This document shows, piece after piece, positions 39,037 through 44,872 of a stretch of 64,000 bases of DNA. The notes beneath the pieces are model-generated. The model ran no database searches and was not told the DNA's origin. It saw only the letters and a program-made list of their open reading frames with translations. The first letter of the stretch is position 1. Every line of letters starts with the position of its first letter. Source of the DNA: Pelosinus fermentans DSM 17108 (GTDB lineage: Bacteria > Bacillota > Negativicutes > DSM-13327); the NCBI RefSeq assembly GCF_000271485.2, contig NZ_AKVN02000001.1:996001-1060000 (forward strand), in the 5' to 3' direction. The translations under genes and the position numbers were made by a program.

Positions 39037-39387
39037 GTGGTACTGAAGAATAGCCATATTGGACTGGTATCATCTGTTGCTGTGCCATTGAAAATCCATA
39101 TTGGCCGGTTCCCTTGCTGTGGCGGCATAGAAATTGTTGCTACTCCAGGACACATGCCAGGGCATATCTCCATTTATCTGGAAGAGAATAAAACACTAAT
39201 AACGGGAGATGCATTAGTACTAGAAAATGGTGAGCTAATTGGTGCAAATCCTCAACACACTTTAGATATGGCAACTGCAAAAAAATCAATCAAGAAGTTA
39301 TTAAATTATGAAATAGATAGGCTAATATGTTATCATGGTAGCGTATACGAAAAAGATGTTAAAGAATCCTTGAAAAAATTTATATAA
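39037..39387 (+). pseudogene. C-terminal remnant of a metallo-beta-lactamase-fold hydrolase
   Basis: About 116 residues with GGIEIVATPGHMPGHISIYL, TLITGDALV and a C-terminal CYHGSVY, which are the second half of the MBL fold. The N-terminal HxHxDH metal motif and the first 110 or so residues are absent and no good ribosome site precedes the frame. Probably a 5'-deleted gene at the left edge of the repeat-rich stretch. A short functional protein is unlikely. Confidence 0.65.
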
Positions 39388-39390
39388 ATC

Positions 39391-39478
39391 AATGGGCAAC
39401 TTCTCTTTTAGTTGACATATCGATAGAAAAACAAACAAACAAACAAACAAACAAGGAACCTGTCCCCTGTCCCATTTT
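39391..39478. repeat. Direct repeat 1, (ACAA)6 microsatellite and REP fragment
   Basis: TGGGCAACTTCTCTTTTAG then TTGACAT..CGATAGAA (39391-39428) recurs at 40853-40888. It is followed by six ACAA units (39431-39454) and GGAACCTGTCCCCTGTCCC. The microsatellite replaces the left arm of a normal REP unit. The rest of the 39388-39643 gap holds a weak hairpin AAAGCCA/TGGCTTT (39498-39540) and the tctC leader. Confidence 0.7.
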
Positions 39479-39643
39479 ATACTCTCAGCCTAGATTCGAA
39501 AGCCACTTTGCTTAATTAAATTGAGTGAGATGGCTTTTTTTGTTTGAATTAAAAGGAATTTTAAAACTTTTGGATAATAAAGACAATAAATGTAATATGT
39601 TATCTTTAAAGTAAAAAAATAACAATTTAATGAAGGGAGAGTT

Positions 39644-40666
39644 ATGAAAAAGAAAGTATTGATTTCGTTATTAGCTTTATATTTATTACTTATTTCAATT
39701 ATTATAGGAGGCTGCACCATGAGCGAGTCTAAAACGGTAGCAACAACTAAAAAATATCCAGATAGACCAATTACCATAATTGTTCCTACTAGCGCTGGGG
39801 GAGCTTATGATTTGATACCCCGAGCGTTAGAAAGAACTGCCAATCAACATTTGGGTCAACCCCTAATTGTTGTCAACAAGCCCGGAGGAGCAGGCAATAT
39901 AGGGTGGAATGAATTGGCTGGTGCTACTCCGGATGGCTATACTATAGGGGTTACTGGAATTGAGATGATATTACAGCCTCTTTACAGCCCGGGCAAATAT
40001 AATTATCCTACTGCCTTAGAACCACTTGTACAGGTTTCCTCTTTTCCAATGGTGCTTGCAGTACAGGCAAATCAACCATGGGAAAATCTTGATGATTTAG
40101 TTAAATACGCAGGGCAGCATCCCGGAGAAATAAAGATTGGTAACAGTGGTATGGGTTCATTCCCTCACGTACTTGGTGAAATGTTTACCCATACTGCAGG
40201 CATTTCCGTTAAGCACGTTCCCTTCCTAGGCGGATCAGATTCAATGGCAGCTTTGCTAGGAGGGCATATTCAAGGTGTTTTTACTACTCAAGCAATAACC
40301 AAAGAACATTTGAAAAAGGGTACTATAAAAGTGCTTGCAGTGACATCTGGACAACGCCTAGCTGATCCTGTATTTGCGTCAGTACCAACATTCAAAGAGC
40401 TAGGGATGGATATTGTATTAAATAATTGGGTAGGATTGGCTGCTCCTAAAGAAATGCCCATTGAGGTAAGAGCAAAGCTAGCTGAGGGCTTAAAAGCAAT
40501 CATTATTGACCCTGAATATAAAAATGCTTTAGAGAATATTGGACTACAAGTTGATTATCTAAATCCTGAAGAATCTCAAAAAAAATGGTTAGATGATAAT
40601 GAAAAATTATCTAAAGTAATCCAAGAAACTGGTATTTTAGACCGAATTAAAGAGCAAAGAAAATAA
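39644..40666 (+). CDS. TctC/Bug-type extracytoplasmic solute-binding lipoprotein, orphan
   Basis: 340 residues. Signal peptide with lipobox IGGC (Cys24), then the Bug fold: YPDRPITIIVPTSAGGAYD near 37, NKPGGAGNIGW near 80, GNSGMGSFPHVLGE and GGSDSMAALLGGHIQ. Such proteins bind small carboxylates for tripartite tricarboxylate transporters. No TctA/TctB membrane genes are present, so it may serve a distant transporter or act in sensing. GAAGGGAG lies before the ATG. Confidence 0.88.
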   Translation: MKKKVLISLLALYLLLISIIIGGCTMSESKTVATTKKYPDRPITIIVPTSAGGAYDLIPRALERTANQHLGQPLIVVNKPGGAGNIGWNELAGATPDGYTIGVTGIEMILQPLYSPGKYNYPTALEPLVQVSSFPMVLAVQANQPWENLDDLVKYAGQHPGEIKIGNSGMGSFPHVLGEMFTHTAGISVKHVPFLGGSDSMAALLGGHIQGVFTTQAITKEHLKKGTIKVLAVTSGQRLADPVFASVPTFKELGMDIVLNNWVGLAAPKEMPIEVRAKLAEGLKAIIIDPEYKNALENIGLQVDYLNPEESQKKWLDDNEKLSKVIQETGILDRIKEQRK

Positions 40667-40852
40667 CGATAAGGTAGCAGGTCGAAAGGTAAGCTGAAGA
40701 TGGACGGGCAAGGGACAAGTTGTTTGCTCCAAGAGATGGAAGAGGTAAGAGGCTTGAACTACATTTTAATTAGGATAAAAGGAACTTTAGATTGATAAAC
40801 AGGTTTTAGCATTATAAAGAGAGGCTATCCATAATAACTAGTTAGTAAATTT

Positions 40853-40984
40853 ATGGGCAGTTTCTCTTTTAGTTGACATGCGATAGAAGACAATTTAGAA
40901 CTTATCGGTTTTAATTTGGGACAAAGAACCTGTCCCCGTGTCCCATTCAATTTGGGACAAAGAACCTGTCCCCGTGTCCCATTC
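40853..40984. repeat. Direct repeat 2 and a 36-bp tandem REP pair
   Basis: TGGGCAGTTTCTCTTTTAG..TTGACATGCGATAGAA matches direct repeat 1. From 40913 two 36-bp units (40913-40948 and 40949-40984) are identical and each contains GGGACAAAGAACCTGTCCCC and GTGTCCC. The rest of the 40667-40852 gap shows nothing I can name. Confidence 0.85.
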
Positions 40985-41151
40985 CAATTGCAGACCTGCC
41001 TTCAGGGTATACACTAACTCCGTTGTCTGTCGTTGCCGTTGCCTGTCGGATATTAAATGGAGATTTCCTGGTTGGGTATCAAACATCAGGCTCCGCTTAT
41101 GGAGAAAATATCATAAGCGATATTCCTGATTCGCATATGATTGACTGTTGA
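40984..41151 (+). pseudogene. C-terminal remnant of a larger protein, truncated at the REP pair
   Basis: A frame of about 55 codons reads ADLPSGYTLTPLSVVAVACR and then NGDFLVGYQTSGSAYGENII and ends at a TGA. It looks like a genuine protein end (saccharopine-dehydrogenase-like C-termini have a GYQTP.SAFG pattern), but it has no start or ribosome site and begins exactly at the second REP unit. I infer a gene cut by REP-associated rearrangement; the family name is tentative. Confidence 0.4.
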
Positions 41152-41212
41152 TCTTAAGCCAAGTTTGCCACCAGCGGGGAAAGCGTTCGAAGGGTTTACC
41201 CCTCACCTGAAG

Positions 41213-41242
41213 TGGGACAAGGGGACAGGTCCCTTGTCCCAC
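41213..41242. repeat. REP palindrome copy
   Basis: TGGGACAAGGG and CCCTTGTCCCA flank GACAGGT; same core as the units beside the RAYT. Confidence 0.75.
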
Positions 41243-41274
41243 CAACTTAGTGAAGATCGTGAATCTAATCATTA

Positions 41275-41303
41275 AAAAATACCATCCATAGGATGGTATT
41301 TTT
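41275..41303 (-). terminator. Terminator of the SASP gene
   Basis: AAAAATACCATCC-ata-GGATGGTATTTTT, perfect 13-bp arms, T run on both strands. Confidence 0.85.
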
Positions 41304-41311
41304 GGGTTGAA

Positions 41312-41560
41312 TTATTGTTTATGGTTGCTTGCTTCGGCAGCTTCTGCTGCTGAATTTTCTGCCATTTGTTCTTCAGCCATTTCGATCATCATTTTTACTT
41401 TTTGACCACCGATTCGGCCACCAATTTTACCAACTTGGCTAGTGGTTAATTCGCTATTATGACCTTGATCTAGTGGTATGCCCAGTTCCTCTGCTACTTC
41501 ATGTTTATTAGGAAGGGCTGCATTCAGTTCCTGCATTGTATCAATTTTACCTTTGACCAT
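41312..41560 (-). CDS. Small acid-soluble spore protein, alpha/beta type
   Basis: 82 residues from the ATG at 41560, which has GGGAG 10 nt upstream; an earlier GTG is too close to that site. KHEVAEELGIPL near residue 20 and LTTSQVGKIGGRIGGQKVK further on follow the alpha/beta SASP plan (EVA.ELG ... GxxGG.mVK.mI.mAE), and MIEMAEEQM completes it. These proteins coat and protect DNA in dormant spores. The N- and C-terminal extensions are longer than in Bacillus SASPs. Presence implies endospore formation. Confidence 0.82.
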   Translation of the reverse strand: MVKGKIDTMQELNAALPNKHEVAEELGIPLDQGHNSELTTSQVGKIGGRIGGQKVKMMIEMAEEQMAENSAAEAAEASNHKQ

Positions 41561-41705
41561 AGTAATCACACTCCCGTTTTATAGATAGTTAATGGGATTA
41601 AAGCCTATTTAGTTCTGAATGATTGATCAATGATAGTATATCTATTCATTGCCTTAGTAATACATTGGTTTGATTCATCGGTCGTTATTTTTCATTGTGA
41701 TGCTG

Positions 41706-42383
41706 CTAATAATAATTATAGATGCCTTTTGCAATTGCTTCTGCCAGTTTTCGCTGATGTTCCGGTGACTGTAGGAGGGAGCGTTCTTCTATATTCGTGA
41801 TATAGCCAACTTCAATCAAGGCCGCAGGAATTTTGTTGCGGCGCAGCACAAAGTAGTTGCCGGGATTAGCGGTTGGAGCGGATTTTATGACTTTACTGAG
41901 TTCATTTTGTATCACATTTGCTAATGACTTGCTGGGTTCTGATTTCGCATAATAAAAAACCTCTGGACCTTGCCTTTTGGAATTTGAAGCAGCATTTGCG
42001 TGAAGACTAATAAATAAATCTGCATCCGATTCTTCGACCATTTCTACACGAGCAGCCAAGTCGCGATGGTAGCGTCCTTTGACTTTTTCGTTGTTGCACT
42101 CAGGGCTAAGTTCAATGTCCGCTTCACGGGAGAGAACTACTTTAGCATCATACTGATGAAGAACCTTTTTTAGCTCTAACGCTATAGCTAAGTTAATGTC
42201 TTTTTCAAGAACACCTGAGTGATTTGCACCAGTGTCAATGCCACCGTGGCCAGCATCCACGACAATGATTTTGCCGGAAAGTTTATGAGTCCTATCATCG
42301 TCTGCATATAGTGTACCAATTATCAGCAGCATAAATAACAAACATAAGATAATTTGTCTTTTGGCAATATATATAGTTTTCAC
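41706..42383 (-). CDS. cwlD: N-acetylmuramoyl-L-alanine amidase, CwlD-like (spore cortex)
   Basis: 225 residues with a GTG start behind GAGGTGG. A signal peptide or anchor (residues 10-27) precedes an Amidase_3 domain: zinc ligands in DAGHGGIDTGA, GVLEKDINL (Glu) and SLHANA (His), and the catalytic Glu in ALIEVGYITN. Length and single-domain layout match CwlD, which helps make muramic-delta-lactam in spore cortex. Its neighbour SASP supports a sporulation role. Confidence 0.85.
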   Translation of the reverse strand: MKTIYIAKRQIILCLLFMLLIIGTLYADDDRTHKLSGKIIVVDAGHGGIDTGANHSGVLEKDINLAIALELKKVLHQYDAKVVLSREADIELSPECNNEKVKGRYHRDLAARVEMVEESDADLFISLHANAASNSKRQGPEVFYYAKSEPSKSLANVIQNELSKVIKSAPTANPGNYFVLRRNKIPAALIEVGYITNIEERSLLQSPEHQRKLAEAIAKGIYNYY

Positions 42384-42518
42384 ACTGCAACCACCTCTTA
42401 CAGCTACATATATGCAGAAAAAAGTTTTATCAGTAGATTTATTAGCCTGGATGATTTTGGAACTTATTTGTAAAAAATAAAATGTTGGAAAGGATCATTA
42501 TGCGCTTATGTGAAGACA

Positions 42519-42561
42519 GGGACAGGTTCATTGTCCCAAAAATAAAAAGGTGTGATATACT
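42519..42561 (+). promoter_or_regulatory. REP unit followed by an extended -10 promoter upstream of dsdA
   Basis: GGGACAGGTTCATTGTCCC at 42519-42537, then TGA-TATACT at 42553-42561. The TTGTCC of the right arm could act as a -35 with a 19-bp spacer. The layout is the same as upstream of the RAYT. Confidence 0.5.
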
Positions 42562-42652
42562 GTAAATATGGTAAAAAATAGAAAGATATAAACAGTCATT
42601 TCTTTTTATTTTTTCAAAGTGCGGTAAAGGATATGTTTTGGGGGGATGTAGA

Positions 42653-44008
42653 GTGAAAAATCGTATTCAAGGAAAAAGCATGGATGAATGGAAGAGGGAA
42701 CATCCACTATTGGAGCAGATTATTAGGACTCATGAAGTGTTTTGGACAAACCCTCAGTATGTAGGTTCTAGTGACAGAATCATAACCCCGATTTTAAGCG
42801 AAGTTGATATCCAAGATGCGGAAAAAAGGCTTCTTAGATTTGCTCCATATATTGCAAAGGTATTCCCGAAAACTAGCGAAACAAAGGGGATCATTGAATC
42901 GCCTCTTGTGAAGATTGATAAAATGAAAGAAGAGCTTAAGGCGTTATATAATCAAGAGATCAGTGGTTCCTTATATCTTAAGTGCGATAGTCATCTGCCC
43001 ATTTCGGGGTCGGTTAAAGCACGAGGCGGTATTTATGAAGTATTGAAAATCGCCGAGGATATAGCAATTGAAAAAAGGATAGTAGTTGAAACTGATGACT
43101 ATACGATTCTTGCTAGTGAAAAATGCAGAGAGCTATTTTCCGGATATTCAATTGTTGTAGGATCGACAGGAAATTTAGGTCTTAGCATTGGTATTATGGG
43201 TGCTATATTAGGGTTTAAAGTGATTGTTCACATGTCATCAGATGCCAAACAGTGGAAGAAGGATTTGCTCAGAGAAAAAGGTGTTACTGTATTGGAATAT
43301 GATTCAGATTATGCTCAAGCCGTTGAGGCAGGTAGAATCCAAGCACAACAGGAAGAAAATAGTTACTTTATTGATGATGAAAACTCTCAGAATCTATTTT
43401 TAGGTTATGCTGTTGCAGGCAAAAGGCTTAAACAGCAGCTGGAGCATTTGCAGATTCTTGTTGACCAAGACCATCCATTGTTCGTTTATCTTCCTTGCGG
43501 CGTTGGTGGTGCACCTGGCGGTATTACCTTTGGTTTAAAGACCGTATTTGATGATCATGTTCATTGCTTTTTTGCAGAACCGACTCACTCTCCTGCCATG
43601 CTGCTGGGACTTATGACGAGGCTGCATGACAAAGTGTCGGTTCAAGAATTTGGAATTGACAATGTGACTGATGCCGATGGTCTTGCTGTTGGCAGACCAT
43701 CGGGATTTGTAGGGAAGACTCTTGAGAAGGATATTAGCGGCGTCTTTACCATACAAGATCAAGAATTATATCGACTGCTCAGAAGGCTGGCGGATTCCGA
43801 AGGAATCTATCTTGAGCCATCTGCATTAGCAGGTTTCGCTGGCCCCGTTAAATTATTTGCAGAATCAAAAGGCAGGCAATATTTAGAACAAAGCAATCTT
43901 AGATCGAAAATGAAAAATGCCACGCATATTGTCTGGGCTACTGGGGGGAGTATGGTTCCTGAAGAAATGATGAGTCATTTTTATAATAAGGACAAAGCCG
44001 GGGAATAA
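42653..44008 (+). CDS. dsdA: D-serine ammonia-lyase (D-serine dehydratase)
   Basis: 451 residues from a GTG at 42653, 9 nt after GGGGG; the TTG 15 nt upstream would lie in the ribosome site. PLP fold-type II enzyme converting D-serine to pyruvate and ammonia. NPQYVGSSD-like N-terminus, PLP lysine in SGSVKARGG, phosphate loop [11 protein letters not shown] and [12 protein letters not shown]. It is bracketed by REP units at 42519 and 44024. No transporter or DsdC-type regulator is adjacent. Confidence 0.92.
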
Positions 44009-44023
44009 CCTGCTTGGGACGGG

Positions 44024-44064
44024 GGGACAGGTTCATTGTCCCAGAAAAATAAAGATGCTATACT
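44024..44064 (+). promoter_or_regulatory. REP unit with embedded RAYT promoter
   Basis: GGGACAGGTTCATTGTCCC at 44024-44042. TTGTCC (44036-44041) in its right arm, an exact 17-bp spacer and TGC-TATACT (44059-44064) make a plausible promoter reading into the transposase. Confidence 0.55.
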
Positions 44065-44082
44065 ATAAGTTGAGGTGATACC

Positions 44083-44841
44083 ATGCCAAGGCAGGCTCGT
44101 GAGAGAAGCAGAAGTGGAATCTATCATTTAATTTTAAGAGGAATTAACAAGCAAACGATATTCGAAAATGATGAAGACCGACAGAAGTTTATTGAAACGT
44201 TAGGGTATTACAAAAGGGTTAGTAATTACATGCTGTATGGTTATTGTCTGATGGATAACCACATTCATTTACTGATACGAGAAAATGAGGAATCCATATC
44301 GCAAGTAATAAAACGAATCAGCAGCAGCTATGTATATTGGTATAATCAAAAATATGAACGATGCGGGCACTTGTTTCAGGAGCGTTTTAAAAGTGAAGTA
44401 ATAGAAACAGATGCCTATTTTCTTATGGCATTGCGATATATTCATCAAAATCCGATGAAAGCAGGAATTGCGAAGGATATCAGAAAATACTTGTGGAGCA
44501 GCTATCATGAGTATACTGGCACTCCTACTATCGTCAATATTGACTTTGCATTAGATATGTTTTCAGAGGATAGAAGGAAAGCTGCGGAATTATTTAAAGG
44601 CCACACTAAGGAGAAAAATTCAGATGCATGCTTAGACTATGAGGAACGGCTGCATGTATCGGATACAGAGGTCGTGGAATATATGAAAGGATTAGGAATT
44701 GCTGCAATTAGTGAATTGCAACGACTGACAAGAGAACAGCGGGATGCTGTGATAAGAAAAATGAAAGAGCACAAGGGTGTCACCCTAAGACAATTGGCAA
44801 GGGTAACTGGGATCTCAAAGAGTGTGATTGACAGGACGTAG
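44083..44841 (+). CDS. REP-associated tyrosine transposase (RAYT, Y1_Tnp family)
   Basis: 252 residues. Single-strand DNA nickase related to IS200/IS605 TnpA. The N-terminal SGIYHLILRG strand, the HUH motif in DNHIHLLI near residue 61, and the catalytic Tyr in ALRYIHQNPMKAG near 122-131 are all intact. A C-terminal helical domain with LRQLARVTGISKSVIDR probably binds DNA. It is flanked by oppositely oriented REP palindromes at 44024 and 44843. GAGGTG precedes the ATG. Confidence 0.92.
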   Translation: MPRQARERSRSGIYHLILRGINKQTIFENDEDRQKFIETLGYYKRVSNYMLYGYCLMDNHIHLLIRENEESISQVIKRISSSYVYWYNQKYERCGHLFQERFKSEVIETDAYFLMALRYIHQNPMKAGIAKDIRKYLWSSYHEYTGTPTIVNIDFALDMFSEDRRKAAELFKGHTKEKNSDACLDYEERLHVSDTEVVEYMKGLGIAAISELQRLTREQRDAVIRKMKEHKGVTLRQLARVTGISKSVIDRT

Positions 44842-44842
44842 T

Positions 44843-44872
44843 GGGACAAGGAACCTGTCGTCCCCTTGTCCC
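44843..44872. repeat. REP palindrome downstream of the RAYT (inverted orientation)
   Basis: GGGACAAGGAACCTGTC then GTCCCCTTGTCCC. This is the reverse complement of the upstream unit plus a second partial arm. It overlaps the last base of the transposase stop region and the leader of the PucR gene. Confidence 0.8.

Follow-up and report, generated by a model that had tools for sequence, protein, structure and literature searches.

What DNA does an intact tyrosine transposase work with when it lies among short palindromes in a Negativicute? The question is raised by 64,000 nucleotides of Pelosinus fermentans DSM 17108 (the window; C1:996001-1060000 of a 5.03-Mb genome, here G000), which carry a gene of the type known as REP-associated tyrosine transposases (RAYTs), REP standing for repetitive extragenic palindrome. 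A sequence-only reading of the window had described an intact RAYT with HUH and Tyr motifs, a flanking palindrome at 44024 with its inverse at 44843 (window numbering), and at least seven REPs in 5.5 kb. From these it proposed an active or recently active REP/RAYT family in a Negativicute, with a unit shape different from the Gram-negative models. On analysis, the intact enzyme, the two flanking palindromes (Table 1) and the link between a REP-like family and a RAYT in this class were borne out. The difference in shape also held, the unit having no GTAG foot; the activity was not supported, for reasons given below. Our main new result, which comes from comparing sequences across loci, is that the hairpins flanking such genes covary.

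Exact GGGACA-N(3-10)-TGTCCC palindromes occur in the window at 40918, 40954, 41222, 42519 and 44024, where 100 shuffles of the 64 kb gave an expectation of 0.00. Two degenerate copies complete the seven: the one at 44843 (GGGACAAGGAACCTGTCGTCCCCTTGTCCC) has two mismatches and the one at 39448-39473 has three, with one arm decayed. The full REP unit is about 28 nt long (TGGGACACGGGGACAGGTTCCTTGTCCCA). A GT(A/G)G foot is not the rule, as the majority of copies begin TGGGAC after A or T and only a minority have GTGG. Searching the whole genome, as the earlier reading had proposed, showed the palindrome to be abundant outside the window: there are 32 exact sites when the gap is slightly loosened (reversed-pattern control, 1) and 36 sites that match the asymmetrical unit with up to three mismatches (control, 0).

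To relate hairpin and enzyme, we compared the flanks of 74 RAYT loci from named Firmicutes and related genomes. Inverted repeats between the upstream and downstream flanks scored at least 12 in 44 of the 74 loci, compared to 72 of 436 mispaired controls. For the covariation test, terminal inverted repeats (TIRs) were picked solely by how well upstream and downstream flanks matched, and each RAYT cluster (<65% identity, n = 32) contributed a single TIR. Mean complementarity of a TIR's own two arms was 6.17 against 4.40 (SD 0.19) in permutations, none of 2000 of which reached the observed value (z = 9.2); an earlier permutation with unselected cores had the same sign (5.55 against 4.41, SD 0.11). 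The arm pairs include GGGACA/TGTCCC, AAACTCAA/TTGAGTTT, TGAAAC/GTTTCA, GTGTCAA/TTGACAC and GGAGACAAG/CTTGTCTCC. While the stems differ between loci, the loop core GGGGAC(A/G)G stays constant and is found in most of the 32 clusters. RAYTs of subclass 2.1, the class to which we tentatively assign the window enzyme below, thus tend to have hairpins on their flanks in which the GGGGAC(A/G)G loop core is constant and the stem is peculiar to the RAYT lineage.

Judged by the flanks, each RAYT within one genome also has its own REP stem, so that enzyme and repeat form cognate pairs. A paralogue of the window enzyme at C1:3855157 (RAYT-2) is flanked by ACTC...GAGT REPs (REP2), and such REPs stand on both sides of RAYT-2 relatives in G003 (P. 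fermentans JBW45, a close relative) and G004 and on at least one side in G006 and G008.

The number of repeats follows the enzyme, as the earlier reading had suggested checking. Among eight related species, the four with an intact RAYT ortholog had exact REP counts of 23, 6, 22 and 15, against 5, 3, 1 and 1 in the four that have lost it or retain a degraded form (one-sided Mann-Whitney p = 0.015, a comparison confounded by phylogeny). Surveys at the level of order and of family yielded the same 10 genomes. We extended the survey to 250 genomes of the class, calling a RAYT at E<=1e-20 and using statistics that ignore relatedness. Such a RAYT was present in 47 genomes and the palindrome in 27, with both in 26 (Fisher 2e-21); G074 is the sole palindrome-bearing genome without a subclass 2.1 RAYT (1/27). 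Among genomes of at least 3.5 Mb alone, the palindrome occurred in 24 of 35 with the RAYT and in 1 of 8 without (p = 0.006).

The protein itself, 252 aa from an ATG start, matches Y1_Tnp (PF01797) at 53 bits (cut-off 23). Its HUH motif (DNHIH) and tyrosine motif (YIHQNP) are invariant in our RAYT alignment (A1); an FQ motif reads HLFQER and an SS motif LWSSY, F98/Q99 being almost invariant and S139/S140 invariant in the same alignment. The profile of TnpA_REP (4ER8) matches it with HUH and Tyr in register, and NCBIfam REP_Tyr_transpos gives 71.6 bits (cut-off 80), the same model scoring a paralogue in the same genome at 85.6. At residues 224-249, HTH_3 matches at 21.5 bits, slightly below its cut-off of 23, pointing to a C-terminal helix-turn-helix (HTH). 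Given its length, FQ and SS motifs and C-terminal HTH, the enzyme is probably of TnpA_Y1 subclass 2.1 (Bertels group 1, 'TIRYT') and not of the E. coli/Pseudomonas type. The placement is probable, not proven, because NHIH and YIHQNP are absent from the tabulated 2.1 consensus (NHVH/NH[YF]H; YIELNP/Y[IV]HLNP) and match those of subclass 2.6. The best paralogues in the same genome are 56, 43, 39 and 34% identical. Because they are few and this divergent, the RAYT is not a multiplying insertion sequence, which sets it apart from IS200/IS605 and IS608, with which it shares Y1 HUH chemistry and the expected link to the lagging-strand template (PMC6006769, introduction).

Subclass 2.1, the largest RAYT subclass, was found in about 15% of species in the survey of Quentin et al. 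2018 (PMC6006769), whose authors take it to be the same as Bertels group 1 and as most of the TIRYTs described by Di Nocera et al. 2013 (PMC3733652). That survey, with automatic and manual searches, found no REP-like sequences near subclass 2.1. The window enzyme resembles the subclass in having Y---NP, FQ for WQ, SS after the core, a long C-terminal HTH extension and several divergent copies per genome, and its 252 aa compare with about 238 (~240-250 aa) in the survey. What differs is that in Pelosinus repeats are present, covarying and genome-wide. In the TIRtron account (PMC3733652), TIRs share GGGGWSAS and form moderately abundant families in some species; the Pelosinus enzyme and its long terminal inverted repeats fit this description, including a GGGGWSAS-type motif at 44023-44030 (GGGGACAG). 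The same account describes TIRs as unrelated to REPs and only some of them as self-complementary, whereas here the general pattern is a hairpin that covaries and has GGGGAC in its loop; in the text consulted there is no mention of composite elements with terminators, of replication polarity or of shuffled gene blocks, all described below. Compared to TnpA_REP of E. coli and Stenotrophomonas (PMC8266576), the Pelosinus system likewise pairs an HUH Y1 enzyme with inverse flanking REPs and a dispersed family, one per RAYT, but the GT(A/G)G foot is not the rule, the constant motif lies in the loop and the enzyme has an extra C-terminal HTH. The enzyme class is ordinary; what is new is its DNA partner and the one-direction arrays to which we now turn.

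Seven copies in 5.5 kb around the RAYT were confirmed, yet this local field is a minority: 20 of the 36 REPs of G000 lie within 92 kb at C1:435-527 kb (p = 1e-25), and 19 of these 20 point the same way. Local hopping from the window RAYT is not supported as the source of the 5.5-kb field, as most copies are elsewhere and those flanking the RAYT are ancestral. Nor did the cluster at 435-527 kb arise by tandem duplication of paralogous genes, since its genes are unrelated. Many of the main-array REPs end a longer repeat made of a terminator-like hairpin, a linker and the REP, and so do the copies found in the window at 39.4 and 40.9 kb; the remaining solitary REPs of G000 are bare, without the hairpin-linker extension. 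An Rfam scan of the composite element found no known RNA family, only group II intron matches.

Arrays and REP-dense regions span 90-200 kb in Pelosinus, and the second family forms them too, in two sister species. G006 has 49 REP2 copies, oriented 47:2, about 40 of them at 3.51-3.70 Mb, and G008 has 42, oriented 2:40. REP2 heads a composite element with a terminal terminator-like hairpin whose sequence is unrelated to that of the first family. The arrays are direct and in one orientation (19:0, 47:2, 40:2), unlike the alternating REPINs and BIMEs. Repeat matches on the same strand outnumber those on opposite strands by 2036 to 18 in the G006 array and 1906 to 46 in that of G008; within the window the figures are 10 and 8. 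Of 115 first-family composite elements, a single one departs from the orientation given by the sign of GC skew; the strands of neighboring genes make no difference, as 21 of the elements come after an oppositely pointing gene. Outlier elements on the other replichore mostly agree with this polarity. dnaA lies at 163 kb in G000, 1 kb in G003 and 4754 kb in G006. The G000 and G006 arrays, though of different REP families, have the GGGGAC strand on the same side of the replication fork. As proof of replication polarity, regional element orientation is weakened by the homology of arrays between species.

Gene order within the arrays is scrambled. The arrays hold a mixed set of accessory genes: 86 proteins from the G006 array include dehydrogenases, transporters and phosphotransferase system (PTS) parts, and the families listed for them include no recombinase. 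Between G006 and G008, 41 orthologous array blocks (median 95.4% identity, 1.0 kb) all keep the same orientation relative to one another, yet of 40 block adjacencies only 6 are retained; control stretches are collinear (4/4 and 2/2 adjacencies). Around the main array of G000 (412-530 kb), junctions were broken in 5 of 7 cases with an element and 4 of 71 without, in counts that are small and pool species that are not independent (G003, G004, G005, G008 and G009). A homologue of the left flank exists in the other of these two species for 69 array REPs; of these REPs, 51 mark a point at or before which homology ends, compared to 221 of 1298 random anchors, and in 24 of these 51 the end falls within 5 bp of the REP 5' edge (26 of 221 for random anchors, p = 9e-8). 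Synteny breaks with base precision at the 5' edges of REPs. In several cases the sequence 5' of the REP is a truncated duplicate (75-590 bp, up to 99% identical) of one that is intact elsewhere in the same array; one such case in G000 is at C1:508925 (121 bp, 97.5%). We rejected simple insertion of a cassette with a readable right end: the sequences to the right are intact duplicates of the truncated flank and not the far side of an insertion.

How might these observations fit together? We think it likely that the enzyme is a RAYT-type endonuclease/transposase of subclass 2.1 acting on single-stranded DNA (ssDNA) and that the REP hairpins are its cognate repeats; in Pelosinus such hairpins occur dispersed both as bare REPs and as REP-linker-terminator elements. 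By analogy with the biochemistry of TnpA_REP and IS608 (PMC8266576), the enzyme would read loop core and stem on ssDNA and, like TnpA_REP and TnpA_IS200, would cleave where the hairpin ends. The REP, with variable neighboring DNA, might then be joined elsewhere to the lagging-strand template of the same fork; joining to nearby lagging template would give single orientation and regional clustering together. We infer that REPs are mobilized with flanking DNA through ssDNA, with a bias in replication strand, and the precise edges and truncated duplicates seem to favor some REP-specific joining. It is tempting to go further and see the arrays as a gene-cassette platform, in which RAYT-type HUH enzymes would use GGGGAC-loop REPs as single-strand recombination sites, integron-like but with unrelated enzyme and sites, and REP-bounded accessory blocks would be moved along the lagging-strand template, their order scrambled without inversion; this extension we regard as unlikely.

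Several observations weigh against the proposal of a RAYT acting on its REPs. The main array lies about 0.5 Mb from the RAYT, so that clustering is not around the enzyme, and the ortholog with its flanking REPs occupies the same chromosomal place in four to five species, which indicates inheritance and not recent hopping. Comparison of species at about 90% identity, whose intergenic sequence is too diverged to read, gave no single REP with a clean empty counterpart. With the RAYT and its REPs inherited in place and no such site seen, the earlier claim of present or recent activity is not supported. RAYT-2 is intact in G000, G003 and G004 yet accompanied by only 4-8 REP2 copies, so an intact RAYT is not sufficient for many REPs. 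The solitary REPs of G000, placed relative to dnaA, show no replication polarity, and the homology of arrays between species leaves few independent observations.

The strongest competitor does without the enzyme in the shuffling. If REPs spread long ago, RecA acting on direct repeats could excise and re-insert circles by homologous recombination, and the RAYT would have no part in it. Repeats as overwhelmingly direct as those of G006 and G008 would keep orientation automatically, and scrambled order with one orientation in 41 of 41 blocks, as well as breakage at the element-bearing junctions, is what such exchange would leave. We give this explanation a little under an even chance. It is harder to reconcile with the edges: in 24 of 51 cases the homology is lost no more than 5 bp from the REP edge, with no REP in the partner at that place, and after a crossover within a shared repeat both sides should carry the REP. 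Nor does it readily yield 5' flanks that are truncated duplicates of intact sequence in the same array.

Two other explanations take the repeats for something else altogether. The palindromes could be nothing more than intrinsic terminators or regulatory hairpins that multiplied when intergenic regions were duplicated, with the RAYT a bystander, and composite elements of both families do hold a terminator-like hairpin and mostly lie between co-directional genes. Yet the REP itself has no T-run, 21 of 110 composite elements come after an oppositely pointing gene, and REPs flank RAYTs as inverse repeats in distant genera, their stem changing with the RAYT; we consider this quite improbable. Chromosomal integron cassette arrays have one-orientation repeats, accessory genes and scrambled order, and the Pelosinus arrays resemble them in having one orientation, accessory blocks of 1-5 kb and an order scrambled between sister species, as if their elements were attC sites and the blocks cassettes. 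An attC site is recognized by GTTRRRY/RYYYAAC at its ends, a pair that the consensus elements lack. A motif scan of the arrays found no open reading frame (ORF) with motifs of tyrosine or serine recombinases, and no integrase is among the families listed for the 86 array proteins, both searches covering the arrays. With neither attC features nor integrase found in these array scans, an integron is hardly credible here.

If the proposed pairing of RAYT and REP is right, subclass 2.1, previously without a known DNA partner, would gain one in the form of a constant loop core with lineage-private covarying stems, and the specificity of enzyme for repeat would become directly testable through stem swaps. 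REP families should also become findable in Firmicutes, where searches for a GTAG foot miss them. One-direction arrays and precise breakpoints tie RAYTs to a highly plastic chromosomal region and raise the question of whether RAYTs rearrange host genes.

Table 1. Position of the RAYT gene and REP-related features within the window.
Feature	Position	Strand	Basis or remark
Decayed composite element with degenerate terminal REP (39448-39473), broken up by CAAA repeats	39385..39473	+	
Composite element of the array type, with terminator-like hairpin, linker and REP (40918-40944)	40800..40944	+	Repeat comparison
Tandem second REP copy, 36-bp step	40952..40980	+	Sequence
Isolated long palindromic REP, GTGGGACAAGGGGACAGGTCCCTTGTCCCAC	41212..41242	+	Folds at -13.5 kcal/mol, z -4.9
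Isolated REP, then degenerate RAYT-leader copy	42519..42566	+	Upstream of PALP-family gene (42638-44008); place conserved in relatives
Upstream flanking REP, TGGGACGGGGGGACAGGTTCATTGTCCCA	44015..44043	+	GGGGAC core reads toward gene; orthologous in G003, G004, G009, G005
Promoter-like TTGTCC-17-TATACT, TG before second hexamer	44036..44064	+	Consensus match only; frequent in shuffles
Y1/HUH tyrosine transposase (RAYT, 252 aa)	44083..44841	+	PF01797; HUH, Y, FQ and SS motifs; C-terminal HTH
Downstream flanking REP, inverse, TGGGACAAGGAACCTGTCGTCCCCTTGTCCC on + strand	44842..44872	-	Orthologous in G003, G004, G009

The relatives of the palindrome that had been placed at 39455, 40918, 40954, 41213 and 42519 are indeed REP copies, but they are not all alike: those at 39.4 and 40.9 kb belong to composite array-type elements, that at 41213 is the long palindrome of 41212-41242, and that at 42519 is a REP with a leader copy. 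Only the REPs at 44015-44043 and 44842-44872 flank the RAYT. With its 3' arm the upstream REP supplies TTGTCC, the first and -35-like hexamer of the promoter-like sequence before the RAYT. REP and putative RAYT promoter therefore overlap, and binding at the REP could also repress the RAYT (autoregulation). The RAYT has the PALP-family gene and a PucR-type regulator as neighbors, and the REP and leader copy directly 5' of the PALP-family gene could lend it a putative promoter. A truncated ORF of metallo-beta-lactamase fold (39037-39387, C-terminal part only) abuts the decayed composite element. A lone TctC gene (tripartite tricarboxylate transporter receptor, 39644-40666) lies between the two composite elements, and diverged TctC homologues (65-75% identity) are found in array stretches of relatives.

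Some further observations concern the paralogues and arrays. RAYT paralogues of about 287 aa at G008:C3:245321 (L045) and at C1:4465343 of G000 have a different inverted repeat on their flanks (GGGTCAGGCTTGAGTTA) and show weak DnaA/MarR-like C-terminal matches. A third REP (TGTCAAGGGGACAGGTCCTTTGACA), followed by the apparent 3' end of a RAYT gene, was read from k-mers. In the 3.505-3.705 Mb array of G006 (L127, L129 and others), the motif GACAGG(A/G)GTTCGRCAC(G)GYGAGSCGTGACC recurs and resembles a hairpin or a T-arm-like remnant. The main array of G000 contains a group II intron domain 5 (Rfam RF00029, 50 bits; L013:18990-19063). Weak DnaA-domain matches with identical scores at C1:518966 and C1:1897783 of G000, the former in an IstB-like ORF beside an IstA-like ORF, probably mark an IS21-type element present twice, once at the array edge.

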